Shown here piece by piece: positions 16,594 through 43,635 of a stretch of 43,635 nt of DNA (its first letter is position 1; each line of letters starts with the position of its first letter). This DNA is from Nitrospiraceae bacterium (lineage in GTDB: Bacteria > Nitrospirota > Thermodesulfovibrionia > UBA6902), in NCBI GenBank assembly GCA_020356065.1, contig CP070632.1, positions 1,444,209 to 1,487,843 of the forward strand, in the 5' to 3' direction. Both the position numbers and the translations under genes were made by a program. The notes under the pieces were generated by a model. It made no database searches. It saw only the letters and a list, made by a program, of their open reading frames with translations, and was not told the origin of the DNA.

Positions 16594-16639
16594 AAAAAAA
16601 AGCCCGACAAATATAAACCGGTTATATTTGTCGGGCTTT
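16594..16639 (-). terminator. Strong intrinsic terminator
   Basis: Perfect 18-bp arms aaagcccgacaaatataa (16599-16616) and ttatatttgtcgggcttt (16622-16639) enclose a 5-nt loop. On the minus strand the hairpin runs into eight T residues (complement of 16594-16601). It lies 37 nt after the stop of the small gene at 16676 and should end transcription coming from the BY-kinase side. Confidence 0.9.
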
Positions 16640-16675
16640 AAGTGTCCTTTTTCGAGGTGTTAAAGTACTCCGAGC

Positions 16676-16876: not shown

Positions 16877-16979
16877 TGATACCACTTTCAAGCGATGCGC
16901 ATTTCAGAGTTCTTCAGTCAATGTATAACTATTTCTCTCTCTACAAATATATATATTTTTAAAGGTTTCATCACATGCT

Positions 16980-22079: not shown

Positions 22080-23108
22080 TTACATCAATACCTGACAATC
22101 CTTATCCTGGACTATTTTATATGTATTTATCAGATCATCATCAGCAGGATGAATCTTCACTATGGATTTCTGACCGTTCATTGAGACAGATACGTCTACT
22201 TTCGAAAGATTCCTGGCTGCCGAGTATCGGGCACATAAAGAAGCAGCTGTTAAGACAGCTTCTTCTGATGGAGTACCAGTAATCATGGTAACAGGACTTC
22301 CATAGCCTGGAACATGCATTGTACAATCATCATTCCCGGCGATTGATAAAATGATTTCATTTTCCTCCCTGTTTCTGCCGACAATTATTTTGCAGTCAGA
22401 AGAACACCTGAAGTGTCTCCCGACTCTTAAAAGATTAATATCTTTATAAGCCGGATCCGGATTATGGTCAAAAAGCTCCTTTAACCTGCAAGAATAATTA
22501 GGTTCTGTCAGCAGGCATCCACCGGCAGGGGCCGGGTACTCGTTCAGACCAAATTCTTTTGCCAGGGCAATCTGCGGTTTTCTTGAACGGCCAGAAAAGT
22601 CATACAGAAGATCTCGGTCAACGAGTCCCTGTTCTTCGGGAATGGTCGGTTTCATGAGTTTTGCAGAAAGTGGTCTGAGAACATATCCTTTTGCATCAGC
22701 TTCCCTGTCGATAACAGGAAACGTGTCCCTTCTCTGACTCATCGGTCTCTGACCAAGGACTTCTCCTGTGATAAGAAAATCAGCACCTGATATCTCCATC
22801 AAATTCTTTGCCTCTTTTAACATCAAGATACGGCAGTCGACACACGGATTCATATTTTTTCCATGGCCATGTTTGGGGTTCTTGACAATGTCTATAAATT
22901 TGTCGGAAAGATGGGCCATCTTCACCCTGAATCCAAACTTAACCGAAGCGGCAAAAGGATCTTTGGAGCATGAGGACCTGTCACCAATTTCACATCCAAA
23001 GTGATTAAGAAACGTTATGGCAGTGACATCAATCCCCTGCTTCAGCATGATCAGCACTGCAAGCGTGCTGTCTAGTCCTCCTGAAAATAATGCAATAGCC
23101 TTAGACAT
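22080..23108 (-). CDS. PP-loop ATPase, MnmA/ThiI-like, with C-terminal DUF814-like domain
   Basis: A 342-residue protein. It begins MSKAIALFSGGLDSTLAVLI, with the PP-loop SGGLDS that adenylates a tRNA or sulphur-transfer substrate. CVDCR (with an upstream Cys pair) and LITGEVLGQRPMSQR are shared with tRNA thiolases of the MnmA/ThiI group. The last 120 residues (LLRVGRHFRCSSDCKIIVGR) resemble the DUF814/NFACT-R module found fused to such PP-loop proteins. A role in tRNA thio-modification is likely but unproven. ATG 23108 is chosen over 23144 because GGAAAGG lies 5 nt upstream and the PP-loop follows at once. It is transcribed away from kdsB. Confidence 0.82.
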   Translation of the reverse strand: MSKAIALFSGGLDSTLAVLIMLKQGIDVTAITFLNHFGCEIGDRSSCSKDPFAASVKFGFRVKMAHLSDKFIDIVKNPKHGHGKNMNPCVDCRILMLKEAKNLMEISGADFLITGEVLGQRPMSQRRDTFPVIDREADAKGYVLRPLSAKLMKPTIPEEQGLVDRDLLYDFSGRSRKPQIALAKEFGLNEYPAPAGGCLLTEPNYSCRLKELFDHNPDPAYKDINLLRVGRHFRCSSDCKIIVGRNREENEIILSIAGNDDCTMHVPGYGSPVTMITGTPSEEAVLTAASLCARYSAARNLSKVDVSVSMNGQKSIVKIHPADDDLINTYKIVQDKDCQVLM

Positions 23109-23147
23109 GGTAACCTTTCCAATTAACGAGGTTATAACTCTCATATT

Positions 23148-27713: not shown

Positions 27714-28598
27714 TTACTGAAAACCGATAACAGCAGTAAAGGGAAAGAGTATTTCTCCGCCGTGATTATCATTTACTGCTATCTCAACATCATGATAGCC
27801 TTTATCCTCAGTAGAAAATTCCCAGCTGATGGCCCCACTTACCGGATCTATGTTCATCCCATCAGGTCCCTTCCTCAGTTGAAAGCTGAGTGTGTCTCCG
27901 TCAGGATCAGTAACATCGGGCCTGTATGTGTATGTCTGTCCACTGAGGATCGGATCGCTGTCCGCAACACGGGGAAGGGCATTGAGGACTTTCCTGTTAA
28001 GCGTTACGCTCTTTCCGGTATCTTCCCCGTCGCTGGGAAAGACTTCAACTGACACCATGTCCCCTCTTTTAAGGTCAGTGTCAAGAAAACTGTCGTCACT
28101 TTCATAATTTCCATTCAGGAACCACTTGTATTGAAAGAAAACAGAATCATTATCAAGGTCACGTGCGTTTGCCTGAACCTGAAATGTAGATTCAGAAGTT
28201 GCAAATTCAGGTATAAGCTTTGCCCTGTCTATGACAGGAGGGCTGTTCCTGATCGTTAATTCATTGGATAGGTACTCATTTTTTCCGCTTATGACCAGTG
28301 CCTGTACTAAATCTCCCTTGCTCAGATCCTTTGGTACGAATCTGAGTCCTTCAGCAGATTCTTCTCTTATACCATTTACCATCCACTGGATTGTCACTGT
28401 ACCTGTTAAGATGTCATTTTTTTCCAGAGATATTATTGATGCCTTTGTAGCGTTCTCCGGACCTATGGAGACATGTGTCGTTTTACTTTCTGTCCCTGCA
28501 CCAGTGGCAGGCTTATGAACATTGCCGGAGTTACTGCTGCAGCTGATAATAAATACTAATATCAGGAGCAGCAGTGCTGTATGTTTCAATTTCATCAT
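27714..28598 (-). CDS. Lipoprotein with putative Ig (He_PIG-like) domains, end of pilus module A
   Basis: A 294-residue lipoprotein with signal MMKLKHTALLLLILVFIISC and lipidation at Cys20. A spacer rich in Ser, Gly and Thr follows, then two or three Ig-like repeats. The last has PRVADSDPILSGQTYTYRPD, then DPVSGAISWEFSTEDKGYHD and VNDNHGG, the putative-Ig pattern. It is clearly homologous to the C-terminal half of the 36178-37197 protein. Its ATG overlaps the pilY1 stop by 4 bp (ATGA), so it is translationally coupled to the pilus tip gene. Probably anchored in the outer membrane facing the periplasm; its role in pilus assembly is inference. Confidence 0.85.
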   Translation of the reverse strand: MMKLKHTALLLLILVFIISCSSNSGNVHKPATGAGTESKTTHVSIGPENATKASIISLEKNDILTGTVTIQWMVNGIREESAEGLRFVPKDLSKGDLVQALVISGKNEYLSNELTIRNSPPVIDRAKLIPEFATSESTFQVQANARDLDNDSVFFQYKWFLNGNYESDDSFLDTDLKRGDMVSVEVFPSDGEDTGKSVTLNRKVLNALPRVADSDPILSGQTYTYRPDVTDPDGDTLSFQLRKGPDGMNIDPVSGAISWEFSTEDKGYHDVEIAVNDNHGGEILFPFTAVIGFQ

Positions 28599-31500
28599 GG
28601 AATCGGCTTGCGTGACCAGCCCATCACCTTGCTTCTGCGCGGAACAGGTGTAACATTCTCGATCTCAATAATTGTTCCGTTCGACTGTTTAATGATCCCT
28701 TTGGTTTTGCCGTCTTTTGTTTCCTGCCCACTTACGGTTGAGGCCATTCCCGCTCCTATGTTCTTGACCCTTGCGACGGGGTCTGTTGTGCCCTGGTCAC
28801 TGAATACATACTGTTTGTATGCAGTGCCTGTCTCGTAGTAGACCGCATAGACATTGCTCTCTCCGTCTTTGGTGCATTCATCGGTTCCCGGAATAAAGGT
28901 GGTCCATGTGACAAGACCGCCAAGAATAAATGGCTTTGTAAACATTTTTTCACCTTTATATTTAAGCGCCGTGCCTGTATAATCGCTGCTCTCACCGCCT
29001 GTGCCGCGTTCACCAAAGAACAGTGCCCATCCATCACAGTTATCCGACCCACTCAGGAGATTGGACCAGTTGGAAATCACTCCGCCGCATGCACCGGATA
29101 CACCTGTTACGGTGCCGTCTGTTTTTACCTTTGCTTTGGAAATGTCAAGCAGGTTTGTGAAAGCTACCGGATTGTCTCCTTTCCAGCCTTTGTCCTTGAT
29201 TCCATAAAATGCTCCGGTATCATCAGGGTTTCTGTCATCCAGGCCTTGGAACTTTCCTGATCCGAAATACACCCACAGATTTGCACTGCTGTCCATTGCA
29301 GCGGCCGGTGCTGCAGTTATCCTTCGGGCAGCATCTTTTGCACCCCCGATTGAGCTGATACCTGCAAGGGTTGAGAGCTCCCACTGAGAGGGGTCATTCT
29401 GTACTCCCCTGAGAGTGGTGAGCCGGCGTAAAAAGGCAGTATCATTCAGCGGATCGTTTTCCCCTATATACATGACATCCACATCGTAATTCAGATCTAC
29501 ATCAATGGAGATGGAATCAGCAAGATATGTGTTTATTCCGCCTGTTGAGATTTTCCAAAAGTTCGAGTTTTCAGTCCATGTGTTAATAACACCATCAGTG
29601 CCGCCGGAGATCTTCAGTACGAATATATTACCGTTCTGATACTGTGTCAAATTTGATTCCTCATCAAATTCCGTAGCGCCTGAGCCGAATATTACATACC
29701 AGGATGATCCTATCCTGGCCACAGATGGATACGACATGGTTAAGCCCAGATCAGGGTTTGAGAATGTCCAGAGAAGCCTTGGTTTTATTGGATCTGTTAT
29801 ATCGAGAGCGAAATATTCAGGGGAACTGCTGTAATCGGTAGTTCCATGCGTCCAGTCCATGGTATCTCCGCCCAGACGCATTCCACCGATGAGTATGGTA
29901 CCCCATCCGCCTACATTTGTTGCTCCATCGTCATCGAAGATCTTGACGTCACTTACCTTTGGTTTCAGATCAACATAATAGACATGCGTGTACTCAGGGT
30001 CTGTCAGCCATTGAAGGTGAGGCAGTAGTCCTCTTGGTATAAACGCCCAGAGCTCCTCACCCAGAGTATGCGTCCCGTTGAAGCACTCTCCGCTGCCGTT
30101 TACGTCAGAGTAAAACCTTCTATTCAGAGCGTCGTAGCAGCCTGCGTTAAAGGCGTGAAGCATCCCGTCATTTGCTCCCACATATGAAACCTGGAGTCTT
30201 TTTTTATGGGCGAGCCAGAACTTTGCATACGAAGCGTCACCATAAAGCAGGTCAAAATTTTCCGAGGGAGGTCCGATAAGCGTAGGAGCTGAATGCACGA
30301 TGTCTCCCAGTTTCCAGATATTGGAACTTGCACCAATGGTAATGTCTCTTTTTCGATACCCGTTTGGATGGGTCGCATCAATGTCGTCTACCGGGTGCGT
30401 GAAGTCTTTGCCGCGTACCCAGTTTATGACCTTTGCGGCAACGGCGTCATCATCTTCCCTGAGATACGGTTTTAAAGCGACGTTATTGGTTGCCACGAAT
30501 TCTTCTCTGCTGTATCCATCTATCGAAGTAAATATTTCTCTTGTATCAGGGTCTCTCTGCCAGAGCAGCTTGCCGCCTGCCCATACGGGATTTATCTCCT
30601 CATATGTATATATCTGGTTTGAGCAGGAATAATTTCCTTCCGTATCCGTATAACTGCATTTAAAAATCTTTGTCCCGTCCTCGATGGTATACTCCATCTT
30701 AAGTATGGAATCCGACGTGTCAAGTGTATCGTCATTGTCCGAGTCTTCTCTTAAATTGCCGTATGAATCAATGAAAAGCGATTGCATGTACCCCAACCAG
30801 CTTCTTGTTTCAAGATTTTCCCATTTCTTGGGGTAGTACTGTGCATGGTACACTGCTCCTTCACCTGTGGTTGAAGATGAAAGCACGCTTGCAGCTGAAC
30901 CGGATGCGACATCAGCGCTTATTTCAAGCAAAGCACTTCTCAGTGTTTTACCTAATTCTTCGGGATCTTTTGGATTATAGAGGGTTGTTCCGCCGTTCCT
31001 GGCGGTGTTGTCCATTAATGTTATCCCGTCGCACTCATCCGGCGTAACCGTGTCTTCTCCGATATATACCACATACGAGGTGATATGCTGCGCAACCTCG
31101 TCGTCAGAAAGGTCTATGTCTGAAGGGTTGAATATATTCCTGTTATTGGCATAGTAACTCAGGTCATCAAGGTAGGTGCTCCCTGAATAATCTCCGCATG
31201 TACCAGTGTCACCGGCATCATTGTCATCAAACAGATGGGAGCTCTGCGTGACCTTGCCTGTAATTTTTGGATTAATATCAGCTGTTGATGCTCCATCAGA
31301 TATGATGAGTATATTGTTTTTCTGGCATCTGAATTGAATGGGATTTTTATTTCCTGCAAAGTCATCGGAATTTAGCGGATCCTGAATGGCATCGGCTGTG
31401 GGGGTAAACTGAACAGGGTCTAAATCCGGGTTGTTGTTTGCGTCTGATACATAATATGCGATTATATTGTAAAATGCCTCAGAAAATGGTGTCCATGTCG

Positions 31501-33019
31501 CAGTTTTGATGTTATTGATGGCCTGGGCGGTATCAGCATCTCCAATATAGCTCACTACTTTACTGCCGTCCTTGTCCGTCGCTGATGGGTTATCAGGATC
31601 CTGACAGTCATTAACAATATTGGTGTTGGTCAAATTTTCTGTACCTGCTCCGCAGTAATTGAACCTCATAACACCAAAGCGTATGCTGTTTTGAAACGCA
31701 TCGATCAATCCGGTTGGTGCCGATGAAATTTCAATCTTTACCGGGAACTGACCAACAGGGTAACCGGCCTGTGCAAAAAGGCCGGAGTCCATGAGAAATG
31801 CCGGTAAATACAATTGATCTGTTGTATCAGCTGTTGATAGTGTAGGATCAATTATTTGGGGGATTTTCAGAGTATCACAGAATGCATTCATCTGGTCTTC
31901 TTCGCAGGAATTGTTTTTTGAAAATTCGTTTACCTTAGGATTTGCTTCCAACCAACACTCCCCGAAAAAACCGGAAAGGCCCGTTGCCTCACATGTTTCG
32001 CCCATCGGACAGTCTGCATCCTCATCACAGATATACGCAGGATTTGTATTTGTACATGCCTTGCGCCGGTCAGAACAGATATATGATGGTTCGTACGACT
32101 GTACATCACCTGGCGAACTTGTTTCATACACCTTTTCACAGGAATTCATCGTCGCGTTTATTGTACCTGAAGATATGGCATCGCCTTTTGCCTTTTTATA
32201 GCATCCATGAATGGTATGGTTAAACGTCGAACGCTCTCCCTTTATTTTTTCTTTAGTGCTATCATCCAACTTTCCCATGGCAAGGCAGTCATCAACTGCA
32301 CCTTTGAATTGTCCCTGACTGTCATCAATCAACGTAGCTGCCAACTGACAGGGGGTGGGATCAAAACTGCCGTCAAAGATCTCGATCACTGTATTTCCTC
32401 CGGATGAGACCTGGAGCAGGTCGTTCGGATCATTGGCATAGCCCCGGACTCCAAACGTGATATTCAGGCCGGGCACTGCCTTTATATGTCTCCTGCCGGT
32501 ACACCCTCTGGATTCTGCCTCTATATAACCGTTTACTGCATCGTATTTTCCGCCTGTCAGGATCTTCTTCAGTACATCCAGTCGTGAGGCTGAGAGCCAG
32601 TTGAGAAACCTTCCGCTTGCTTCAAATGTCGTGACCAGGCCTGCCCCGATATCAACACAGAGATACGCTGTGGTGTGAACACATGTGGAAGAAATCGCTG
32701 CACCCTTTTTGCCGAATGTGCCGGTTCCGTTCTTCCACTCATAGACCACATCCTCTTCAAAATATCCCGTATACGTAGCCGTGTTGTCATAGCTGCTGTC
32801 ATAACAGTGCGGATCAGTTGCAGGATTGTATAAATACTGAAGATCAACCATACTTCCCGAATTGTCGATCATGAGCATGAGATTGGCAGGGGAATCAGTC
32901 AGAACAGACGGCGGATAGGCGGTATAATCAGACATGATCTGGGCTTCGGACAGCGCAGATACACTTATTAATAATGCCGTCAGACAGATAATATGTTTAT
33001 ATAATTTTACTGTTCTCAT
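28595..33019 (-). CDS. pilY1: PilY1-like type IV pilus tip/adhesin protein (module A)
   Basis: A 1474-residue secreted protein. ATG 33019 (MRTVKLYKH) is used because AGGGAG lies 6 nt upstream; longer starts lack a site. After the signal peptide there is a vWA-like region with a MIDAS pattern (LMLMIDNSGSMVDL, and later ILIISDGASTADIN), interrupted by a Cys-rich insert (CDEDADCPMGETC). The C-terminal half is the PilY1 beta-propeller: VSYVGANDGMLHAFNAGC, WAFIPRGLLPHLQWL, and the calcium loop DVDLNYDVD (about 29476-29505). PilY1 sits at the pilus tip with minor pilins and controls pilus extension and surface sensing. It follows pilX and overlaps the Ig lipoprotein gene by 4 bp. Confidence 0.93.
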   Translation of the reverse strand: MRTVKLYKHIICLTALLISVSALSEAQIMSDYTAYPPSVLTDSPANLMLMIDNSGSMVDLQYLYNPATDPHCYDSSYDNTATYTGYFEEDVVYEWKNGTGTFGKKGAAISSTCVHTTAYLCVDIGAGLVTTFEASGRFLNWLSASRLDVLKKILTGGKYDAVNGYIEAESRGCTGRRHIKAVPGLNITFGVRGYANDPNDLLQVSSGGNTVIEIFDGSFDPTPCQLAATLIDDSQGQFKGAVDDCLAMGKLDDSTKEKIKGERSTFNHTIHGCYKKAKGDAISSGTINATMNSCEKVYETSSPGDVQSYEPSYICSDRRKACTNTNPAYICDEDADCPMGETCEATGLSGFFGECWLEANPKVNEFSKNNSCEEDQMNAFCDTLKIPQIIDPTLSTADTTDQLYLPAFLMDSGLFAQAGYPVGQFPVKIEISSAPTGLIDAFQNSIRFGVMRFNYCGAGTENLTNTNIVNDCQDPDNPSATDKDGSKVVSYIGDADTAQAINNIKTATWTPFSEAFYNIIAYYVSDANNNPDLDPVQFTPTADAIQDPLNSDDFAGNKNPIQFRCQKNNILIISDGASTADINPKITGKVTQSSHLFDDNDAGDTGTCGDYSGSTYLDDLSYYANNRNIFNPSDIDLSDDEVAQHITSYVVYIGEDTVTPDECDGITLMDNTARNGGTTLYNPKDPEELGKTLRSALLEISADVASGSAASVLSSSTTGEGAVYHAQYYPKKWENLETRSWLGYMQSLFIDSYGNLREDSDNDDTLDTSDSILKMEYTIEDGTKIFKCSYTDTEGNYSCSNQIYTYEEINPVWAGGKLLWQRDPDTREIFTSIDGYSREEFVATNNVALKPYLREDDDAVAAKVINWVRGKDFTHPVDDIDATHPNGYRKRDITIGASSNIWKLGDIVHSAPTLIGPPSENFDLLYGDASYAKFWLAHKKRLQVSYVGANDGMLHAFNAGCYDALNRRFYSDVNGSGECFNGTHTLGEELWAFIPRGLLPHLQWLTDPEYTHVYYVDLKPKVSDVKIFDDDGATNVGGWGTILIGGMRLGGDTMDWTHGTTDYSSSPEYFALDITDPIKPRLLWTFSNPDLGLTMSYPSVARIGSSWYVIFGSGATEFDEESNLTQYQNGNIFVLKISGGTDGVINTWTENSNFWKISTGGINTYLADSISIDVDLNYDVDVMYIGENDPLNDTAFLRRLTTLRGVQNDPSQWELSTLAGISSIGGAKDAARRITAAPAAAMDSSANLWVYFGSGKFQGLDDRNPDDTGAFYGIKDKGWKGDNPVAFTNLLDISKAKVKTDGTVTGVSGACGGVISNWSNLLSGSDNCDGWALFFGERGTGGESSDYTGTALKYKGEKMFTKPFILGGLVTWTTFIPGTDECTKDGESNVYAVYYETGTAYKQYVFSDQGTTDPVARVKNIGAGMASTVSGQETKDGKTKGIIKQSNGTIIEIENVTPVPRRSKVMGWSRKPIP

Positions 33020-33111
33020 AATTGACTCCCTTTGTTTAATTTTCAGGAACCTGTTGCATTTCTTATGGCTGTGATCTATATCTTTACAAATGTTTGTCAT
33101 TTCCTGTTAAC

Positions 33112-33648
33112 TTATTTCGGTATATACTGATAAATTGATCCGACCTCAGCTGAAGAACTGACCATTCCTGAGCTGGATGCATTTATCCTGTAGAAGACCT
33201 TGAATCCGCTTGCCCCGCCTTTTCCAAGCCCCTCATATCCTGAGGCAAACTCGATTGAATCATTTCCCCATGTGTTGTACATCTTGTCAATATCCACATT
33301 TACGTTGTTTGCTGCATCATCCACGGCATACGATACATCCGGATTAGCATCTTCATTGCTGTCACAGTCAAAGAATACTGTCCTGAGCTCAGTTTCAAGA
33401 TTATTATCACCGATGATATCGGTAAATCCTGTCTGGTCGCCCTCCCGTACAAGATGTTCAATTATTTTTGTACTGATCTCAAGTCCTGCGTCAGCCTTGA
33501 TGACATTTTGTTCTCTCAGTCGCATATTTCCCGAGAGCTTATTCTCGATCGTGCTGGTATTGACCGCTGAAAGACCGATGACCGTGAGAACAAGCAGTAA
33601 CAGCAGAGACGTAATAAGAATGTACCCGTTTTCATTGTGCTTTAACAT
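33112..33648 (-). CDS. pilX: PilX-like minor pilin (module A)
   Basis: A 178-residue protein. A short leader (MLKHNENG) is followed by a hydrophobic N-terminal helix YILITSLLLLLVLTVIGLSA, then the PilX signature VNTSTIENKLSGNMRLREQN and ADAGLE. It lacks the usual Glu at mature position 5 (Thr instead), as in tip pseudopilins of the GspK/PilX type. AGGAAAG about 6 nt before ATG 33648 supports the start. A 92-bp gap separates it from the pilY1 start. Confidence 0.9.
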   Translation of the reverse strand: MLKHNENGYILITSLLLLLVLTVIGLSAVNTSTIENKLSGNMRLREQNVIKADAGLEISTKIIEHLVREGDQTGFTDIIGDNNLETELRTVFFDCDSNEDANPDVSYAVDDAANNVNVDIDKMYNTWGNDSIEFASGYEGLGKGGASGFKVFYRINASSSGMVSSSAEVGSIYQYIPK

Positions 33649-33658
33649 GTATCTTTCC

Positions 33659-34720
33659 TCACTGGTTCCTCATGGTGGTCACCGTCCGCCACCATCTCCG
33701 TCTGAAATTGTCGTTCGTATCGCTGAGATTGCGGTTTTCTATCTGGTCCGGCGGATTACCCATTCCCTTGTAATTAAGGTCCGGCCTGTCGGACCGTGCA
33801 AGGACATTGATACGGAATGCCATGATCGTTGCCGGGTCTGCGACATCCACACCGTTGAGAAAATCATTGTCATCGAAGTTTCCGTCAGCATTCTGGTCAT
33901 CCATTACCCCGTCTTCATTGACATCCACAGCATATGCAAACTGGAGATCTTCGATATTTTCTGCAATGGCTTCATCATCAGACGTGGCTGCCGGTACACA
34001 TGCAGCAGCATTTGCATTTCTGCGAATCCTGTGAAGGATGGCATCACTGTCGACACAGAACGTGGTGTCCTCAACCAGGTACACAGGCCTGCCCGCAGTA
34101 CAGTTACCGCCTCCGGCAGCTGTACATGAACCGCCTCCGGTCGCGTTTTGCAGGGGGAAATTCTGCGATAATGGCCTGTCAAGGGTAATATTGTCAGGAT
34201 CGCAGATTCCACTTGCCCCGATAGTACAGTTAGATACCTGGACCGTTTCGACTCCGTCTATGCTCAGGTATCTTTTATCGGTCAGGTTAGGACCGTCGGT
34301 GCCGGTATATTTTATCCTGACATTTGTGGTACCTGCCTCGACTGAAGCCGGGCACATTACTGCTCCGGAACCTGTGGGCCAGAGGGTACCGATCATCCGA
34401 AACCCTCCGACAACGGTAATCGCATCAGGTCCGAGAGTATCGTCCACAGGTGTGATTATCGAGGTGAAGGTATTTACAGGCTCCTCATTTAATTCAACTG
34501 AAAGGCCAAAGCCTGCGCTTCTGACCTCACCGGCCAGCAGGTCATGAGCTATTTTTGACTGGGTGTTTACCTCGGATACGCTTTCCTGAACAACATGGGA
34601 GCGTTTCTGCACTATGTATGTACCTGTTGCAGCGATGATCAGCAGGAGCCCGATTACAATGGCAATCATTAATTCAACAATCGAATATCCTTGTTCAGTA
34701 TTATGGTGTAACATTTTCAT
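33659..34720 (-). CDS. pilW: PilW-like minor pilin (module A)
   Basis: A 353-residue protein with a class III prepilin leader and helix: QG|YSIVELMIAIVIGLLLI (Glu at +5), then the PilW block SKIAHDLLAGEVRSAGFGL. The globular part has a Cys/Gly-rich loop (GGGSCTAAGGGNCTAGR) and an EF-hand-like acidic loop (DVNEDGVMDDQNADGN), suggesting calcium binding. It starts inside the end of pilV (20-bp overlap); ATG 34720 and the ATG two codons later are both possible. It should be part of the priming complex at the pilus tip. Confidence 0.9.
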   Translation of the reverse strand: MKMLHHNTEQGYSIVELMIAIVIGLLLIIAATGTYIVQKRSHVVQESVSEVNTQSKIAHDLLAGEVRSAGFGLSVELNEEPVNTFTSIITPVDDTLGPDAITVVGGFRMIGTLWPTGSGAVMCPASVEAGTTNVRIKYTGTDGPNLTDKRYLSIDGVETVQVSNCTIGASGICDPDNITLDRPLSQNFPLQNATGGGSCTAAGGGNCTAGRPVYLVEDTTFCVDSDAILHRIRRNANAAACVPAATSDDEAIAENIEDLQFAYAVDVNEDGVMDDQNADGNFDDNDFLNGVDVADPATIMAFRINVLARSDRPDLNYKGMGNPPDQIENRNLSDTNDNFRRRWWRTVTTMRNQ

Positions 34721-35291
34721 CCCACCTTAACGTATTAAGTGTTACAGATCGATTTGTATTGTTTTTATCGGTCCAGCAGGTCCTTACCCTGATCGCAGAA
34801 GAGGCGGTGGCCAATGCTGCATCAGGATCGGTTAAACACGATGCTGCAAGGGCTGGATTACAGGTTCCATCATCTCCATCCAACTGTAAGGCAATACAGT
34901 TCGGGTGCACCCAATACGTTCTCGTGTAAATTATGCCACCAGAAAGGGACGTTTCAACTGCCGGTACCGGCTCGACATCCGAACCAGAGGCCAGGCTTGC
35001 GTAGGGAACTGCATTAAACTGTTCTATTAACTGCTGGCTTATGTTTGTGGCGACCCTCATATCTTTGCTCGATACATTTCCGCCGACCGCATAATATTGC
35101 ATCCCGAGGACTCCGAGCATTCCGGTCATCAAAACGATCAGTGCTATCATGATCTCGATCAATGTGAATCCCTTTTCCCGGGAACATGCAGATAATGATA
35201 ATGCGTAATTATTCCTTGCATAATGGATGAGGCATTCTTTTGCATTTATAAAATGCATCCCTGTCTGTTTCATTTTTTTTCTGATACTCAT
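34701..35291 (-). CDS. pilV: PilV-like minor pilin (module A)
   Basis: A 196-residue protein with prepilin motif KG|FTLIEIMIALIVLMTGMLG (Glu +5), followed by GMQYYAVGGNVSSKDMRVAT and ISQQLIEQFNAV, the PilV pattern. ATG 35291 overlaps the fimT stop in an ATGA junction, giving a leader of about 41 residues, which is long; a later internal start is possible but no better site is visible. The C-terminal region has four cysteines that could form disulphides. Confidence 0.87.
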   Translation of the reverse strand: MSIRKKMKQTGMHFINAKECLIHYARNNYALSLSACSREKGFTLIEIMIALIVLMTGMLGVLGMQYYAVGGNVSSKDMRVATNISQQLIEQFNAVPYASLASGSDVEPVPAVETSLSGGIIYTRTYWVHPNCIALQLDGDDGTCNPALAASCLTDPDAALATASSAIRVRTCWTDKNNTNRSVTLNTLRWDENVTP

Positions 35292-35977
35292 CTTAGTTCT
35301 GTCCATCCACAGCATTTTTTCGGAGTACCCGTACAGTCGTTGACCACATCCGGGGCAGGATTATCTTTATCGCCATCCCATTTCCAGAGGTCAACTTTTC
35401 CTGTCTGATAACTGATCCTGAGCATATAGGTAATCCCTCGATTAGTGTGTTTAATAAATGCTGAACCGGTAAATTCCACTGAGCCGTCAGGATTGAAAAC
35501 CTGCCTGACCGGGCCGGCCGTACTGCCGAATTCCACGGTTTTTCCGGTTATGTCTATGCATGCTGGGCAGTCTTTGGGCTCATCAGGTCCTGTACCGGTT
35601 TCCGTACCGAAAACAAGCTCATTTCCATAGTCTTTCAACCGGACTGTCCGAACGTTACCACTTTCAAACCCGTCAACAGCATCAGTAAGTTTATTGTTAC
35701 CATCACCGTCAAACCCGATGCTAAAGCTGTCGTCACCTGCTTCATTAAATGTGATAAAATAGGCCCTGTTTTCCTTAATTGCCATGGTTCTTGCAAGCCT
35801 CATCGTCTGCAGAAGATCATCAGCCGCACTTCTGACTCTGCTTTCACCGACAAACTTGCCATACTGGGGGATACCCATGGAGGCCAGAATGCTGATGATA
35901 ACAATCGTAATAAGCAGTTCAATCAGTGATACACCATTTTCATTCTTTATCATCTTCATGGTTGTCATTTTCTGCAT
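35288..35977 (-). CDS. fimT: FimT/GspH-like minor pilin (module A)
   Basis: About 229 residues. Prepilin motif NG|VSLIELLITIVIISILASM with Glu +5, then YGKFVGESRVRSAADDLLQT and ARTMAIKENRAYFITF, the FimT/GspH signature. FDGDGNNKLTDAVDG is an EF-hand-like loop. Several Met codons (35977, 35968, 35959, 35953) precede the motif and no clear ribosome site separates them; 35977 is the first ATG. It is the first gene of module A, after a 200-bp gap that may hold a promoter. Confidence 0.88.
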   Translation of the reverse strand: MQKMTTMKMIKNENGVSLIELLITIVIISILASMGIPQYGKFVGESRVRSAADDLLQTMRLARTMAIKENRAYFITFNEAGDDSFSIGFDGDGNNKLTDAVDGFESGNVRTVRLKDYGNELVFGTETGTGPDEPKDCPACIDITGKTVEFGSTAGPVRQVFNPDGSVEFTGSAFIKHTNRGITYMLRISYQTGKVDLWKWDGDKDNPAPDVVNDCTGTPKKCCGWTELR

Positions 35978-36177
35978 TTTAATATGCAAATTCTATGCTT
36001 AAGTCTAAGTAATGAAATATCAATGCGTTAGGGAATTATTTGTACGAGAAGAGTGAAATTTTACACAAATAGTATGTAATGAATTTCATAGTGGATTAAT
36101 CTGCAATCAGCCTATTTCCTGTCAATAATGTAGATGAAGAGGAAGCAGAAAACTTTTGAAATGAAAAAGAAAGCTTC

Positions 36178-37197
36178 TTATGGCGTCTCTGACGGTGACT
36201 CTGCATCCTTAATGGAGAGCGTAAGTTGCTGCCTTGCCTTTCCCCCATGTCCATCGTCAATATCTATCGTGATCTCAGCCGCACCTTTATATTTCGGGGG
36301 TACGGTCCAGGTGATCTGACCGGCAGAGTCAATACTCATTCCCTCTGGAGCAGAGGTAAGAGCATATGTAAGGGTATCGTTATCATTGTCGGATGCTTCA
36401 AGCTGATACGTATAAAGACTTCCGTCCAATGAAGATATTCCCCCGGTGATCCGGGGAGGCGTGTTATGAATTTCTTTTGTTAACACCAAAGGAAATCCAT
36501 AATCGAGATCATCATATGGTGATATTTTTACACTTATCGAATCTCCTCTTTTAAGAGGTTGGGTCATTTTTGGCTCTTCGCCTGCGTACTTCCCGTTTAC
36601 TGACCATTCGTAATCAAAATAAATGTTATCTTCTTCAAGATCTGCAGCACTTGCCTTCACCTCCATAGCATTCCCTGATTCAAGAATAACCGCAACAATA
36701 TCCGCGCTATTGATTCTCGGCGGAGAATTTATATTTCTCAGTTTCTTTTTTGAATCCGAACGTACAATGTTTGATGAATCTTTGTGGGCAACGTCGCTCT
36801 TACTGCTGGCAATTTCAGATTTTATATTTTTCGAGGTATGGTTGCCTTTTCCGGATTCCTTATCGTTTGCCAAGAAAAATGAAAATACAATAATGACTGA
36901 AATTAATAATGCACTTAGGGTAATCTTATGCGGGATCTGCAGCTGTCCTCCGGTATTTTTATTATCTGCGTATGTACCCGAACCATGATCTGCAGAAGAA
37001 TGATCAAGATCATGTAATATCTGGTCAAGCCGGTGTTTCAACGAATGACTTATAGATGCTTTGCTTTGAGACGTTCGCTCATCTAAATCGACAAGACCAC
37101 CGAAAATATCATCGATGTCTTCGTGAGCAGCGATTTTCGATTCATTCTTTATGTCATTATGAGATGTATACCCGTCTGAATGGCTGTGATTACTCAT
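36178..37197 (-). CDS. Bitopic inner-membrane protein with putative Ig domains, end of pilus module B
   Basis: A 339-residue protein. A cytoplasmic acidic/polar tail of about 92 residues (including EDIDDIFGGLVDLDERTSQS) is followed by one transmembrane helix (about 93-109, LSALLISVIIVFSFFLA) and a periplasmic region. That region has a Ser/Lys-rich linker and two or three Ig-like repeats (LDGSLYTYQLEASDNDNDTL, DSAGQITWTVPPKYKGAAE, DDGHGGKARQQL). It is homologous to the 27714-28598 lipoprotein, but with a membrane anchor in place of the lipid. ATG 37197 has AGGA 8 nt upstream; a TTG at 37215 is possible. It follows pilX of module B closely and could couple the pilus tip set to the inner membrane (inference). 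Confidence 0.82.
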   Translation of the reverse strand: MSNHSHSDGYTSHNDIKNESKIAAHEDIDDIFGGLVDLDERTSQSKASISHSLKHRLDQILHDLDHSSADHGSGTYADNKNTGGQLQIPHKITLSALLISVIIVFSFFLANDKESGKGNHTSKNIKSEIASSKSDVAHKDSSNIVRSDSKKKLRNINSPPRINSADIVAVILESGNAMEVKASAADLEEDNIYFDYEWSVNGKYAGEEPKMTQPLKRGDSISVKISPYDDLDYGFPLVLTKEIHNTPPRITGGISSLDGSLYTYQLEASDNDNDTLTYALTSAPEGMSIDSAGQITWTVPPKYKGAAEITIDIDDGHGGKARQQLTLSIKDAESPSETP

Positions 37198-37211: not shown

Positions 37212-37814
37212 TCAATAAAAATACAGTATGGAGGATATCGCTCTTTCATTGAGATTTGGCACACTCGACTGGACCTCTATTGAATAAATGTACGGTAATT
37301 TTTTTACACTTACCTCACCTGAATCGGACTGAACAACCGCATTTTTTAATAACCCTGTGTCAGCCGCAGTATTTCCTGCTACAGTATCAACAACTTTTGA
37401 ATAAACGTTATAGGTTCCCATATCAAATGCCATGTCATACGTGCTGCTGTCCAGTCTGTCGATCGACAATGATGAATTGCACACTGCATTCCAGTCATCA
37501 GTGTTATTAAGGAGCTTATCCGTGATACAGTTGAATCCCCCAACATTAGATGAGGGGGTAGTGAGATTGACAAGGCCGAGGTTTAACGGATAATTAAAAT
37601 TGGTCTGATCCCCTCTGGAACTGACAAGCTGGAACATCACTTCTGAACCTCCGGTTGCAGCCTGGTTGGCAGTTTCATACCTTTTATGAGAACCGGACAT
37701 TCTGGTTGATTCTGTTACAAAGTACAGGATGCCGCTTGACATGGCAAGGCATATCACGGAAAGAATAAGTACCATGATAAGGGCCATACCTTCGTTGTTG
37801 TGTAACATTTTCAT
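37212..37814 (-). CDS. pilX: PilX-like minor pilin (module B)
   Basis: A 200-residue protein. Leader MKMLHNNEG, helix MALIMVLILSVICLAMSSGI with no Glu +5 (Met instead), then ESTRMSGSHKRYETANQAAT, the PilX pattern. It matches the module A pilX gene in position and fold but is diverged in sequence. Four bases separate it from pilW. Confidence 0.87.
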   Translation of the reverse strand: MKMLHNNEGMALIMVLILSVICLAMSSGILYFVTESTRMSGSHKRYETANQAATGGSEVMFQLVSSRGDQTNFNYPLNLGLVNLTTPSSNVGGFNCITDKLLNNTDDWNAVCNSSLSIDRLDSSTYDMAFDMGTYNVYSKVVDTVAGNTAADTGLLKNAVVQSDSGEVSVKKLPYIYSIEVQSSVPNLNERAISSILYFY

Positions 37815-37818
37815 TGTA

Positions 37819-38952
37819 TTATAAATTGTCCAGACTCACCGACATCTGATAACGTTTCCACCTGTAATATTTATATTCAGGACTTCCAATAATGGCAGAA
37901 AGATTGGTTGTAGTCAATGAATCTCTCGTATTATCCATGGAGAAATCATACGTCATGTCTTTCTGACCTTCCTGCATAACTATTGTTACCATCGCCTCTT
38001 TTACCTGGTCTCTGATATCTGTGGCACTCATGAGGGTAATATCATCAGATATAAGATCAATTGTACCGTCATCATTCGTATCCATTGAGTATGTAATCTG
38101 AAAATCAGCAACGCAGTCAAATAGCGGCAGCTCATCGTCAACGCCGTCACCATTGAGGTCATAGTCACCATCAAGGTGATCTACGACTGTCTTTACGAAC
38201 ACCCCGGTATTGGGAGCACAATGCGAAGGGGTATTTAACATCGAAATAAAATAATCGGCCCGGTTAAAGGGCATTCGGGGAGATGTGCTGGGATCCAGTC
38301 CATATGCGAGATATGTGGTTGTCGGCTCTGCTGGTGAAAATGCAGCAGGAACCACTGCATCAGCACCGCTATAGGTAATGAGAGTCGAAAAAACAGTTCC
38401 ATTGACAATTAATGTCCGTTCATTGTCTTCTGTAGTTCCGGGAGAGACTACAATTACCCTGTCATTGGTCACAAAGTTCTCATTTGCCAGATCCCATAAC
38501 TTCAGGATGCCGTCAGATCCCAAATGTGACCATTTATGTGCTGTATCGGTTATGGCAACATTAGTAGACTTGATGATGAGCGCATCTGATCCGTTTGGCC
38601 CAATACCGTTTCCACTCAGAATAGCCCGGGGTGCATTGGCGGGTGCATCATTGTAATCACTGGCAGGTGCAGCGCTTGCCTCTATATAATTGGTCAGGGT
38701 GTTCCAGTTGACAGCCACTCCTACATTATCTGATGCATTCCAGGGAAGTCCCAGTCCAGCATGTTCTATGTCACGTCTTAATATATCGAAACCTATAACA
38801 CCCTCGATCTGGGTCTCTGAAATTTTACCCTGCTGCTTGAACTGGCCAAGAATGTTTACAAAAATATTCGATGCAGCAGTAATGACAAAAAGAACCAGTC
38901 CCATGGCAACTATTAATTCGATGAGACTGTAGCCATTCTCTTTATGAATCAT
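37819..38952 (-). CDS. pilW: PilW-like minor pilin (module B)
   Basis: A 377-residue protein. MIHKENG|YSLIELIVAMGLVLFVI has Glu +5, then FDILRRDIEHAGLGLPW, the PilW block. Acidic EF-hand-like loops occur at DGDYDLNGDGVDDELP and DTNDDGTIDL. GAGGAG lies 3-4 nt before ATG 38952, and the ATG overlaps the pilV stop (ATGA). Confidence 0.9.
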   Translation of the reverse strand: MIHKENGYSLIELIVAMGLVLFVITAASNIFVNILGQFKQQGKISETQIEGVIGFDILRRDIEHAGLGLPWNASDNVGVAVNWNTLTNYIEASAAPASDYNDAPANAPRAILSGNGIGPNGSDALIIKSTNVAITDTAHKWSHLGSDGILKLWDLANENFVTNDRVIVVSPGTTEDNERTLIVNGTVFSTLITYSGADAVVPAAFSPAEPTTTYLAYGLDPSTSPRMPFNRADYFISMLNTPSHCAPNTGVFVKTVVDHLDGDYDLNGDGVDDELPLFDCVADFQITYSMDTNDDGTIDLISDDITLMSATDIRDQVKEAMVTIVMQEGQKDMTYDFSMDNTRDSLTTTNLSAIIGSPEYKYYRWKRYQMSVSLDNL

Positions 38953-39365
38953 AATCTCCTCTGAATGGTAGCGACAGCATGTGTATAATTCTCCCCTTTA
39001 TACATCCATGCTATTGTTACATTGATTTGCCTGGCTAAAGGATTTACCGCGGGTAGATCTTCTACTGCTACCGTTGAAGTGAAATCCACATTGAAATTTC
39101 TGACTGTCCTCTGAAGGTCAGGATTATCCGCACTTGTTTCAACGCCTGCTTCTGCCGGAAGGTTGTCAAATGTGACATTCCTGAGCTCTATTAATTTCAT
39201 ATCTGCCATCTGTATAGCTTCATCTCGAATAATATTCTGCATATTCGTTGTACTTGAAAGTAACGATGTCATTAGTAATGAGAGGAACATGATTAAAATG
39301 ATTGACATGGCAATCATCAGTTCTACGAGAGTAAATCCCTTTTTATTTAATAATGCATTCATCAT
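38949..39365 (-). CDS. pilV: PilV-like minor pilin (module B)
   Basis: A 138-residue protein. MMNALLNKKG|FTLVELMIAMSIILIMF has Glu +5, followed by SSTTNMQNIIRDEAIQMADM. It is shorter than the module A PilV. The start is ATG 39365 or the adjacent ATG 39362, with AGGG 4-7 nt upstream, inside the end of fimT (23-bp overlap). Longer upstream frames are only a shadow of fimT. Confidence 0.86.
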   Translation of the reverse strand: MMNALLNKKGFTLVELMIAMSIILIMFLSLLMTSLLSSTTNMQNIIRDEAIQMADMKLIELRNVTFDNLPAEAGVETSADNPDLQRTVRNFNVDFTSTVAVEDLPAVNPLARQINVTIAWMYKGENYTHAVATIQRRL

Positions 39366-39921
39366 CTGCCCTGTTTGAAGTATCGTTCGTCTCAAGTTTC
39401 CCAAGATTGATTCTTGTTGCTCTGATAGAAATACAGTCATAATCAGGAATAGCGTCCTGCTCACCATCACTGTCCCTGTCGAGATAGGTTGAAATAACCG
39501 CCTGCACTGAAGAGATCCCTCGTGTGTTGAACGAGAAGTCAACCGGCATGGCGATACTGGAATTGTTCCAGTCGAAATCATATTCAACATCTTTGGGAAA
39601 TGACGGGAGTTCGGTGTCTGCTGACGCGCCGCTACCAGTCTGAAGGACGCCATCACCATCAGGAACTTTCACGGCCCCATTACTGTCATCTTCGTAAAAC
39701 GTATACGATGTTGCATCCTGCAGTCTGACAAAGTGTGTTCTTTTATTTTCAATCGCGCTCAGTCTGGCATCCATCAGTTCAACATACAGATCTTTGATCT
39801 GGCTTTCAATTTTATATTTCCCCATCCATCCCCGAAAACTGAATGCAGTAGAGATCGCAATAATATTTATTATGGTGATGACGATCAGCAGTTCAACTAA
39901 TGATATTCCTTTATCTTTCAT
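39343..39921 (-). CDS. fimT: FimT/GspH-like minor pilin (module B)
   Basis: A 192-residue protein. MKDKG|ISLVELLIVITIINIIA has Glu +5, then the GspH/FimT region KDLYVELMDARLSAIENKRT. Acidic loops VPDGDG and LDRDSDGEQDAIPDYD suggest calcium sites. The ATG overlaps the pilY1 stop of module B by 4 bp (ATGA), so pilY1 comes first in this module, unlike module A. Confidence 0.88.
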   Translation of the reverse strand: MKDKGISLVELLIVITIINIIAISTAFSFRGWMGKYKIESQIKDLYVELMDARLSAIENKRTHFVRLQDATSYTFYEDDSNGAVKVPDGDGVLQTGSGASADTELPSFPKDVEYDFDWNNSSIAMPVDFSFNTRGISSVQAVISTYLDRDSDGEQDAIPDYDCISIRATRINLGKLETNDTSNRADDECIIK

Positions 39922-42900
39922 CGTTCTCTCATATGCACGACTTTTTTCCTCGGCGCAGGCATTGTGAGCAGTGTCAATCCCTGATATTTCGGAGGTGCAC
40001 CATCCATTTCACTCGTTCTTCGGTTGTTTTTTTCCGTAAATGCAGAGCCTAGATCCTTTTCTTCAATACTGCCGGTTGAGAGCTGGACATACACCTTGCC
40101 TCTCAATGCATACTGTGCCGATCCTCCTGTGCTGTAATCCACAGCCCAGACATGTGTTTTACCCCCAAACCCGCATATATCTGCATTCGGTTTAAACGTT
40201 GTAAAATACACCGCTCCTGCCGTACTGGATACCGTATCAGTAATTACCCGTTCAGCTTTTTCCGATGCTCCGGACAGGTCAAGCTGAATTTTCCATCCTT
40301 TAAATGAAGGATCATGTGCGTCAGCCGGTATATTTGAGATATCGGTGACGTCAGTCAGAGCGGCTTCCGCAATGGTAGTTGCACAGGCTGGGTCATACCC
40401 GTTTGTTGAGTAACATGGCTCTTTCATCCCATATATAAGCCTTCCCGTATCAGAATCATCTATCCCTGCAATCAGCTGATAAAAGTATCGTCCTGTTCCA
40501 AAATATAACCACATGTTATGCTCAACCTGATTGACAAGCCGGGCGACTCCGGAAGTGACCGGTCCGATATCATCGATTACCTTGCTCCATGTCCAGTTGT
40601 TCGGATTTGCATTTTCCTTTGTTACCAGTCTGAGAACACCTCCTTTTGTCCATGTATTCCCGGACCCGGATGCACTGTATGTGTACCCCATATGAAGAAC
40701 ATCGTCCTGGTAGTCGATGTCAGGATCAAATGTGGAATTCATGATATTGCTGGCAAATGCGTATGCAATGCCCGTATCGATTGTTCTCATGACATTCCCG
40801 GTTTTGAGGTCAAGAATAAAAATACGCAGGTTCTGATCGGAACGGCCCATGAATTGATCTTCCGTAATGTCGATAGGACCTGTCGGGCCTGAAGCAAAAA
40901 CCACGAACCAGTTTCCATTTGTCATTTTATCGGGATCTCCGCTCATATTTGTGGAACTGATTCTCACGACTGCCGGTCCGGTGGTTGCGAATCCCATTTG
41001 ATCATTTGAAAATTCCCATAGTAATGTCGGATTATTCTGATCAGTGATATCCAGGGCAAAATATGATGAATATCCGGATCCTGAAGCAGGTGTCTTCACA
41101 CAGTCAGTGCAGCCGCTTGAAATATCCCTGCACGATCCTCCCTGTCCCATGCCGCCGATAAGTACTGTTCTCCATGAAGATCCATCGGACGGTCTCACAG
41201 TTGTGCTGCCTCCGTTAATGCTTGCATCAAAAATGTATGAAGGCGCATCTATGGTGAATATGTGACAGTAGTCCGGATCGGCAAGATATTTAAGATAGGG
41301 AAGGACATTCTTTGGAATATATGACCACTGTTCCTTACCAAGATCTGCTCCTGATAATACGGCTTTTCTGAACTGTTCATGTTTCATCTCCAGAGATCCA
41401 AGCTTGAATGCATGGAGCATTCCGTCGTTAGATCCCGTAAATACCATTCCTCTGCTCTGATAATTTGCTGACTTCAAATAAGCCTTGTATGACACGTCAC
41501 CATACACATCATAATATTTATTCAGGGGGATGGAAGATGATATCTTTGGGGTTGAACTTATGATGTCCCCAAGCTTCCACACCTTTGCAGCTTCACTCAT
41601 GCCGTTCACTACGTCATTCGTATCGCCGTCATCATTAAGATCTATGGCAACCGTTCGTGAGCGATATCTTATTGTTCCGACACCATCTGTATAATCAGCC
41701 AGGTCATTACCCTTTACATAATTAATGATGTTTGACGCGACCGCATCGTTTTCCGCATCACTTCTTCCTGCATCATCTGTGTTTAACAATGGTCTGAGAG
41801 TTGAAACGTTCAGTGCATCAAAAGCATTTGTCCCGCTTGTGAGAGAGGCCCCGGAGTTCAGTGGTGTATAAATATTTCGAGGTTCTGTCGTGAGGTCCCT
41901 GTTCCAGAGTAAAATTCCTGCTTCCCACAGGTTGTTCAGCTTTTCAAATTCCAGGTCAGGAAGTATCTGTGTCAGGGTGCCGTCACCTGCAGGATCTGTA
42001 AAGCGCGATACCATTGTTTTGTTCTGCGTTGAATCAAAGTAGAATTTAACCACATGGTCGTTACTGAGATTGAGTTCTCTGTCGCCGTCTGTATCTTCTC
42101 TGATTGACGTGCCGCCGAACATGGGATTAATGTAAAACCAGAGGTTCTGCAGCGTGCTGGTCCAGGCTATTTCCGCGTTTCCAAATTTTCGTCTTGGATA
42201 AAATACCACCTGTTCCATCAGGGCTCCGCTTCCTTCTGAAGATGCGATAACCGATGATGCGGTACCGGATGATGCCTGGCCTGAGACTGTCTGAAATACG
42301 TTTTCAAGTGAACTTCTCAGAGATTCCGGATCCTTGGGATCATAGAGTGAAGTACCGCCATTAACGGCAGTATCGTTCATCAATGTCTTTGGATGGCAAT
42401 CACCACTCAGCGTACTGGCATCAGTTCCCGTGTAAACAACATAGGTTGTTACGCTCTGGGCAGGAAAGTTATCACTGGGATCATTGTCCATGGGATCAAA
42501 TATATTTTTGTTTTTACCATAATAACTCAGGTCATCGAGATAGGAGCTTCCATCATAAGAGCCACATACACCGGAATCTGAGGTATCACCGTCATTATAC
42601 AGATCGTCGGCCTGTACGGCTTTACTCATCATGCTGATATGCTGGTCAGCTGTTGAGGCACCGTCTGAAATGATAAGGACACTGTTTGCCTGACATCGGT
42701 ATTCGACCGGATTTTTGTGGTCATCAAAATCATCTGAGTTCAGGGGCTCCTTAATGGCTTCAGACGAGGCCGTAAATTTTGCCGGATCAAGGAAAGGGTT
42801 GTCAGTGGCATCTTTTACAAAATAGGCCAGTGCGTTGTAATATCCTTCTGCAAACGGGGTCCAAGTATCAGCTCGTATACCATCGATGGAGTTGATTAAT

Positions 42901-43635
42901 CCACTACTGTGGTCACCCACGTTAGATTCACACGTCTCTCCAGCAGGACATTGGTCATCCCTGATACATGCAGTAGCCGAGCCGGAACAGGTGCCTTCCC
43001 CAATGTAATGAATTATTCTCCCGGCGTCTTTATCGCCTGATGCTGCCACACATGTTTCGCCTGAAGGGCAATCAATGTCTAATGAACAGACAATGTCTGA
43101 TGTACCGCTGCAGACCTTTGGACACTGCATCCCTCCTGATACGCATTCAGAATATGACCCGTCAAAATTAAAATCCATCGCACCAAAACGTATATAGTCA
43201 CTGTAATCGTTAATCAACCCTGCTGGTGGCGTCGCATTAGAATTATTGGCCTCAAAAGTGCCAATCGATGATCCCAGTTGTGCTTCTATCCCGATATCTG
43301 AGATTATTGCAGGGATATTTGCGGTTTCTGCCGTATCGTCGGGAGTATCCGTAGGATCAACAACGGGCGGGACCTTTATACTGTTGCAGTATTCCAGATA
43401 CTTTGAAAGGAAACAGTCCATGGGATCAGCATATTCTTTTGCCACCCAGTTTGTCGTGGCCCAGTCATCACTGGTTGTGGCACAATATCCTGTAAATTGG
43501 GAATTGCACATTAAAGCAGGATTTCCGGGACTGAGCGCTAAAGGTCCTCCTTCACATACGCCATCAGGACAAGCAGCATCTGACGTACATGTATTACCGT
43601 CGTTATCACCGCCATTGCATACCTTGTGGCCTGCG
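39918..43635 (-). CDS. pilY1: PilY1-like type IV pilus tip/adhesin protein (module B, N-terminus outside window)
   Basis: At least 1238 residues, open to the right window edge; by comparison with module A some 350 residues, including the signal peptide and MIDAS start, are missing. Visible parts: vWA-like segment (VLIISDGASTADQH), Cys-rich inserts (CTSDAACPDGVC near the edge, CSLDIDCPSGETC, CIRDDQCPAGETC), and the PilY1 propeller with MVFTGSNDGMLHAFKLGS and WSYIPKNVLPYLKYL. The equivalent of the PilY1 calcium loop is DPDIDYQDD (about 40700-40727). Sequence is well diverged from module A, so the duplication is old or the modules have separate origins. Confidence 0.92.
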   Translation of the reverse strand, partial: AGHKVCNGGDNDGNTCTSDAACPDGVCEGGPLALSPGNPALMCNSQFTGYCATTSDDWATTNWVAKEYADPMDCFLSKYLEYCNSIKVPPVVDPTDTPDDTAETANIPAIISDIGIEAQLGSSIGTFEANNSNATPPAGLINDYSDYIRFGAMDFNFDGSYSECVSGGMQCPKVCSGTSDIVCSLDIDCPSGETCVAASGDKDAGRIIHYIGEGTCSGSATACIRDDQCPAGETCESNVGDHSSGLINSIDGIRADTWTPFAEGYYNALAYFVKDATDNPFLDPAKFTASSEAIKEPLNSDDFDDHKNPVEYRCQANSVLIISDGASTADQHISMMSKAVQADDLYNDGDTSDSGVCGSYDGSSYLDDLSYYGKNKNIFDPMDNDPSDNFPAQSVTTYVVYTGTDASTLSGDCHPKTLMNDTAVNGGTSLYDPKDPESLRSSLENVFQTVSGQASSGTASSVIASSEGSGALMEQVVFYPRRKFGNAEIAWTSTLQNLWFYINPMFGGTSIREDTDGDRELNLSNDHVVKFYFDSTQNKTMVSRFTDPAGDGTLTQILPDLEFEKLNNLWEAGILLWNRDLTTEPRNIYTPLNSGASLTSGTNAFDALNVSTLRPLLNTDDAGRSDAENDAVASNIINYVKGNDLADYTDGVGTIRYRSRTVAIDLNDDGDTNDVVNGMSEAAKVWKLGDIISSTPKISSSIPLNKYYDVYGDVSYKAYLKSANYQSRGMVFTGSNDGMLHAFKLGSLEMKHEQFRKAVLSGADLGKEQWSYIPKNVLPYLKYLADPDYCHIFTIDAPSYIFDASINGGSTTVRPSDGSSWRTVLIGGMGQGGSCRDISSGCTDCVKTPASGSGYSSYFALDITDQNNPTLLWEFSNDQMGFATTGPAVVRISSTNMSGDPDKMTNGNWFVVFASGPTGPIDITEDQFMGRSDQNLRIFILDLKTGNVMRTIDTGIAYAFASNIMNSTFDPDIDYQDDVLHMGYTYSASGSGNTWTKGGVLRLVTKENANPNNWTWSKVIDDIGPVTSGVARLVNQVEHNMWLYFGTGRYFYQLIAGIDDSDTGRLIYGMKEPCYSTNGYDPACATTIAEAALTDVTDISNIPADAHDPSFKGWKIQLDLSGASEKAERVITDTVSSTAGAVYFTTFKPNADICGFGGKTHVWAVDYSTGGSAQYALRGKVYVQLSTGSIEEKDLGSAFTEKNNRRTSEMDGAPPKYQGLTLLTMPAPRKKVVHMRER

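Follow-up and report, generated by a model that had tools for sequence, protein, structure and literature searches.

A candidate family of envelope-tethered immunoglobulin/cadherin-fold accessory proteins in the PilY1/minor-pilin modules of Nitrospirota

What is the role of an immunoglobulin (Ig)-domain protein at the end of a type IV pilus gene module? The question is raised by a 43,635-nucleotide stretch of a Nitrospiraceae bacterium (GenBank GCA_020356065.1, contig CP070632.1, positions 1,444,209 to 1,487,843; hereafter the window), in which two consecutive sets of PilY1 and minor-pilin genes each close with such a gene, here called IgA and IgB. Read along the minus strand, the gene order is PilY1, FimU, PilV, PilW, PilX, IgB, followed by FimU, PilV, PilW, PilX, PilY1, IgA. 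A first-pass annotation of the sequence had placed an Ig protein at the close of both modules and proposed that the two match no standard pilus component and may be undescribed partners of the tip complex; we find both open reading frames (ORFs) on the minus strand, each as the last gene of its module in the window, and neither has a Pfam or NCBIfam match that would make it a standard, named component of type IV pili. We put at roughly 55% the probability of a reading in which IgA and IgB, members of a single Ig/cadherin-fold family, are tethered to the envelope and act as accessory proteins in type IVa pilus priming, and the data suggest that the Ig protein is a widespread, hitherto uncharacterised helper of pilus-tip assembly.

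The Ig genes are linked to pilus genes far beyond the window. Of 295 genomes sampled across the phylum (Nitrospirota), 177 gave a profile match to the family, and a relative of IgA occurs in 44 of 61 genomes, its own genome counted. Our neighbourhood sample comprised 40 regions around IgA matches, 39 usable far regions, the loci L126-L130 and the window; the far regions were hand-picked for family spread with their neighbours then unseen, and the Ig genes, counted at E ≤ 1e-15 (n = 87), were found via the Ig proteins and not via pilus genes. Directly downstream of pilY1 (50) or pilX (30) lay 80 of these 87 genes; the remaining seven were located at a contig edge (2) or had another or no upstream member (5: FimT 2, Ig 1, PilW 1, none 1). 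In a random draw from 94 further listed places, all 19 Ig genes directly followed pilX or pilY1, as did 20 of 20 upon adding the hand-chosen G052. The first-pass annotation would have been refuted by a lack of conserved linkage to minor pilins elsewhere; linkage to pilX and pilY1 is clearly conserved across the phylum. The proposed partnership in the sense of tip subunits is not supported, as the anchors described below hold the protein in the envelope. Two module orders were found, FimU-PilV-PilW-PilX-PilY1-Ig (type 2, that of IgA) and PilY1-FimU-PilV-PilW-PilX-Ig (type 1, that of IgB), and the start of the Ig gene overlaps the pilY1 stop by 4 base pairs in 15 of the 50 type-2 cases, including IgA. 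In some rearranged modules, the Ig gene is flanked by a PilY1 gene on either side (L106, L115) or separates PilW from PilX (L113). As several rows are closely related (L127/L128, L043/L044 and many members of one genus), the counts are not independent; L076, whose Ig gene is cut by the contig end, was left out of the position table and the tree.

With this conserved linkage to pilX and pilY1, the Ig genes form a class of PilY1-module accessory genes. As a control, we inspected PilY1 loci in 8 of the 24 genomes that contain PF05567 without an Ig profile match, and found an Ig protein at 0 of 8; the Ig gene is therefore an accessory that does not belong to the core. Across the 295 genomes, 132 had both Ig and PilY1, 45 Ig only, 24 PilY1 only and 94 neither (Fisher 1e-20, phylogeny ignored). 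Four genomes scored as Ig-only by PF05567 (G064, G073, G125, G129) do contain PilY1 by a custom profile, and because PF05567 under-detects PilY1, several of the 45 are false absences. In one genus, modules of type-1 order end at pilX without an Ig gene (L192, L193 and L196, in G058, G059 and G131), providing a natural Ig-less control. As to reach beyond the phylum, one scan of named genomes, short of a systematic search of other phyla, returned at least 46 loci, of which the best 5 were pilus-linked (titled as three Nitrospirae, one 'bacterium' and one 'Deltaproteobacteria'); among the matches listed, none of the other 41 had a neighbouring PilY1 or pilin gene at E ≤ 1e-3, many of them being giant multi-Ig ORFs.

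IgA and IgB are relatives of each other. A pairwise BLASTP alignment (E 7e-37) of IgA residues 118-291 to IgB spans 174 residues at 36% identity, and the two proteins are the only strong matches to IgA in the whole 3.17-megabase genome (E 1.3e-34 for IgB), which makes a chance similarity untenable. The earlier description of the same chain of Ig repeats in both applies to the two Ig/cadherin-like domains that they have in common, but IgB lacks a counterpart of the first of the three such domains of IgA. Similarly, the KRGD motif pointed out as a common feature does recur at the domain-2 site, in 26 of 42 aligned homologues, but as a repeat turn in which only the D is invariant; KRDD, KKGD, KGGD and others occupy the same site, and related KGD turns occur at the domain-1 site. 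We therefore rejected a reading of KRGD as an RGD adhesion motif. An integrin-binding RGD has reportedly been found in Pseudomonas aeruginosa PilY1, with which the KRGD of IgA and IgB is not to be equated.

Known domain families describe these proteins in generic terms. Pfam gave He_PIG over cut-off in both proteins (24.8 bits in IgA, against a cut-off of 24, and 40.7 bits in IgB) as well as Big_9 and Cadherin_5 in IgB, whereas NCBIfam gave nothing over cut-off for either. The final domain matches He_PIG in 39 and Big_9 in 41 of the 42 aligned family members; domains 1-2 of IgA have no significant match to the He_PIG, Big_9 or Cadherin_5 families. The AlphaFold2 (AF2) model of IgA, based on a seven-row alignment, contains three beta-sandwich domains, with a mean predicted local distance difference test (pLDDT) score of 81.9 and values mostly above 85 from residue 100 onward. 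Domains 1 and 2 are mutual repeats (hhalign probability 97.7%), and domain 3 has, in this predicted structure, a cadherin-type beta-sandwich fold, aligning to cadherin-23 EC1 with Z 9.2 and a root-mean-square deviation (rmsd) of 2.5 over 90 residues (VIA-align). Conserved DPDGD and Dx(2)GG residues were seen in domain 3 upon alignment of homologues, and the conserved DxDxD/DxDGD residues suggest that the Ig domains may bind calcium. In Foldseek searches with the Ig chains, whole-chain template-modelling scores were at most 0.43 among the matches listed, with E-values that reflect multi-domain Ig chains generally.

The lipid anchor of IgA and the membrane helix of IgB had been noted from the window, where they are correct: IgA carries the lipobox IISC-20, whereas IgB, taken to start at the ATG at 37197, has no lipobox and shows a strong hydrophobic stretch near residues 93-112, preceded by the 92-residue tail. 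As a rule for the two kinds of module, however, the distinction does not extend to the family, as lipoproteins are the majority in both module types and helix anchors also occur in both (74 lipid, 10 helix and 2 unclear among 86 rows). Anchors were called by our own hydropathy and lipobox rule, with four lipoproteins (L045, L075, L097, L101) called by eye; L122, with an unclear start, was dropped from the anchor tree, and L092 and L114 gave no usable anchor call. We built a tree from the C-terminal 200 residues of 86 Ig proteins by a quick method, with many weak branches; on it, module type changes only 2 times, compared to 24 in shuffles (0 of 500 shuffles as low), from which it follows that the Ig gene stayed with its module type, while the anchor changes 7 times. 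L043 and L044 have near-identical Ig chains whose main difference is the anchor, one with a lipobox and the other with a hydrophobic stretch without cysteine, and loss of the lipobox cysteine may accordingly offer a simple route from lipid to helix anchor. At L086 (8635-10763), a lipid and a helix form that belong to different parts of the Ig tree stand in tandem after one pilus module. That lipid and helix anchors replace one another suggests that being tethered is more important for the protein than the kind of anchor.

The strangest part of the finding is the conserved cytoplasmic tail of IgB. The AF2 model of IgB has a mean pLDDT of 67.2, with tail and linker disordered except for predicted helices. 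L076, an orthologue from a different genus whose module has the same gene order, retains tail, helix and linker with 45% identity over 197 residues, including blocks around HSHSD, IDDIF.GL and QILH.L; by this sequence conservation the tail is real and conserved, though observed in no more than two genomes. Those of the other helix-anchored homologues that have a clear start have shorter N-termini. In a same-genus genome, a C-terminal fragment of IgB (70% identity) lies at a contig end. A FliM-like reading of IDDIF was set aside as too little to claim: among 5467 ORFs in the examined loci, 3 contain the pattern, IgB and its orthologue being two of them.

We suggest that the Ig protein would be made together with its own PilY1 and minor pilins and, with its Ig domains as a rod on the periplasmic side, would bind PilY1 and/or the minor pilins, stabilising or positioning them such that the priming complex forms, a step that calcium at the DxDGD-type sites would probably assist. 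The Ig protein would then stay behind in the envelope while the tip is extruded, and the conserved tail of IgB may give an additional cytoplasmic contact. Since either anchor, the lipid or the membrane helix with its cytoplasmic tail, holds the protein in the envelope, an action on PilY1 and the minor pilins before export is more likely, and the Ig protein is probably retained by the cell instead of becoming a tip subunit.

Such helpers have precedents. According to PMC8833165, TfcP of Myxococcus xanthus is likewise an additional non-pilin gene product of a minor pilin/PilY1 cluster, which stabilises PilY1.1 at low calcium and is absent from pili; unlike the membrane-anchored, Ig/cadherin-like family described here, TfcP is a cytochrome c that carries a type I signal peptide, and no cytochrome c domain was matched in IgA or IgB in Pfam or NCBIfam. 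TfpY of P. aeruginosa, a membrane-held accessory protein and non-tip helper, is proposed to prime assembly together with the minor pilins and was undetected in the pilus (PMC11841053); it differs in being tied to the major pilin and in having three membrane helices and a different periplasmic domain, whereas IgA and IgB each have a single N-terminal hydrophobic stretch. In PilP/GspC (PMC4471445), a homologous periplasmic beta-sandwich is lipid-held in one system and single-span in the other, as in the Ig family, which however has several Ig/cadherin domains instead of one HR domain, another gene neighbourhood, and no match of IgA or IgB to a PilP or GspC profile at E ≤ 1 in Pfam or NCBIfam. 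Searches of these two databases also gave no N_methyl/prepilin (type III) signal in IgA or IgB, as a minor pilin would have. He_PIG, Big_9 and Cadherin_5 match the last domain of the family, but are generic domains that do not cover the pilus-linked architecture. By the tests run, the Ig proteins are members of none of the TfcP, TfpY or PilP/GspC families; by analogy, they may be TfcP- or TfpY-like in role and PilP/GspC-like in anchoring.

Several observations weigh against an envelope-held priming accessory. Some PilY1 modules have no Ig protein, which is therefore dispensable in those genomes, and the calcium-binding idea draws on motif and fold. In mirror-tree comparisons, Ig correlated alike with all module members (r 0.62-0.68 for 30 type-1 and 0.74-0.81 for 34 type-2 complete modules), and the partial correlations (-0.06 to 0.21) singled out no partner. 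Lastly, residue +2 is Ser in 45 of 68 rule-called lipoproteins and Asp in 0 of 68. In Escherichia coli such residues point to the outer membrane, a rule of uncertain validity in this phylum, and by this rule the outer membrane and not the priming site is predicted. The same residues, together with the cadherin-like domains, argue for a surface lipoprotein of the outer membrane that the retracted pilus tip or other cells would engage as a dock, receptor or adhesin, with the helix forms as later departures; since helix forms occur in both module types, even within the near-identical pair, and would put the domains in the periplasm, we consider this alternative unlikely. Slightly less likely still is a tip-complex subunit or co-adhesin, an Ig chain that would be built into the pilus tip alongside PilY1 and exported. 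The gene does adjoin PilY1 and the minor pilins, and cadherin-like folds are frequent in adhesins, with the C-terminal domains of SraP as an example (Z 9.5, rmsd 4.9 over 146 residues), but a lipid or helix anchor in 84 of 86 rows (2 unclear) and the 92-residue cytoplasmic tail of IgB are hard to square with pilus export, and the KRGD turn is not a conserved RGD. We doubt even more a periplasmic connector between priming complex and secretin, a PilP/GspC-like bridge in the strict sense, which the analogous lipoprotein/bitopic pair of PMC4471445 and the modelled beta-sandwich chain, with a long linker in IgB, would fit, but which the location of the Ig genes in the minor-pilin module and the missing PilP family match disfavour. 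The weakest alternative, in which IgB and its orthologue would be transmembrane relays whose Ig domains feel the state of PilY1 and the minor pilins and whose tail reports to a cytoplasmic partner, is consistent with the tail being kept in L076 and with its predicted helix 45-65, but is improbable given a long tail in two genomes only and the shorter N-termini elsewhere. As for the envelope-tethered accessory family that we prefer, its boldest extension seems unlikely: a phylum-wide, undescribed class of priming factors, each a cadherin-like rod inherited with its PilY1/minor-pilin set, with interchangeable anchors and a periplasmic hold on the priming complex, in which IgB and its orthologue would relay the tip state to the cytoplasm through their tail.

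The features of the window are collected in Table 1. The putative PilX and PilW of module 1 are named from synteny, with profile matches below cut-off. The same genome has one PilQ match and four PilT-family matches over cut-off. Sigma-70 and terminator scans gave values near those of shuffled sequence. Near the pilus modules on the same strand lies an apparent exopolysaccharide cluster (7741-19322), with a Wzz/tyrosine-kinase-like part at 16980-19322 (Pfam) and ORFs that by eye resemble a sugar transferase, flippase, polymerase and glycosyltransferase; beside it is a sigma-54 activator (20007-21431). The 144-residue ORF at 15982-16416 looks, by eye, like a shortened duplicate of the N-terminal region in the 620-residue ORF at 2866-4728, and at 22080-23144 NFACT-R is fused to a ThiI-like domain.

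Table 1. Ig proteins and pilus-module genes in the window.
Feature	Position	Strand	Evidence
IgA, 294-residue lipoprotein, three Ig/cadherin-like domains, final gene of module 2	27714..28598	-	ORF; lipobox IISC20; He_PIG over cut-off; AF2 model; 4-bp overlap
IgA signal peptide and lipobox cysteine (residues 1-20)	28539..28598	-	lipobox IISC-20
IgA domain 1 (residues 42-117), homologue of domain 2	28248..28475	-	AF2 strands; hhalign
IgA domain 2 (residues 118-205), bears KRGD turn	27984..28247	-	AF2; hhalign
IgA domain 3 (residues 206-292), He_PIG/cadherin-like, DPDGD motif	27723..27983	-	Pfam; VIA-align
PilY1, module 2	28595..33100	-	PF05567 1.9e-13, over cut-off
PilX, module 2	33112..33648	-	PF14341 2.7e-11
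PilW, module 2	33659..34720	-	PF16074 5.5e-12
PilV, module 2	34701..35315	-	N_methyl; TIGR02523 2.2e-9, below its cut-off
FimU/FimT/GspH-like pilin, module 2	35288..35989	-	PF12019 2.8e-6
IgB, 339-residue single-span membrane protein, final gene of module 1	36178..37197	-	ORF; He_PIG 3.3e-10, Big_9 2.8e-9; AF2
IgB two Ig/cadherin-like domains (about residues 157-331)	36205..36729	-	BLASTP; Pfam; AF2
IgB membrane helix (about residues 93-112)	36862..36921	-	hydropathy maximum 2.66; AF2 helix 94-110
IgB cytoplasmic tail (residues 1-92), predicted helix 45-65	36922..37197	-	AF2; kept in orthologue L076
PilX-like, module 1	37212..37814	-	PilX_N 0.015, below cut-off; homologues in same position elsewhere
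PilW-like, module 1	37819..38952	-	N_methyl over cut-off; PilW 0.043, below cut-off; synteny
PilV-like pilin, module 1 (start chosen by hand)	38949..39359	-	N_methyl 6.1e-8
FimU/FimT-like pilin, module 1	39343..39921	-	N_methyl 1.1e-4; synteny
PilY1, module 1 (extends past window end)	39918..43634	-	PF05567 3.3e-9, over cut-off

The pilus-linked Ig family is likely novel. In literature searches that left subscription journals largely uncovered, we found no description of such a protein and none of PilY1 together with Nitrospira and pili; the main text of a 2026 survey of myxobacterial PilY1 clusters (PMC13190605) contains none of the terms 'lipoprotein', 'Ig-like' and 'immunoglobulin', and Pfam and NCBIfam show the homologues as generic Ig domains only. 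Nitrospirota include nitrifiers and sulfate reducers. Knowledge of priming by PilY1 and minor pilins comes mainly from Pseudomonadota and Myxococcota. In another phylum, the Ig gene found here at the close of almost all modules examined is a strong candidate for an assembly factor that has gone unrecognised. Modules that lack the Ig gene mark it as an addition to the core, and the natural anchor swaps are ready-made variants for asking where the Ig protein acts.

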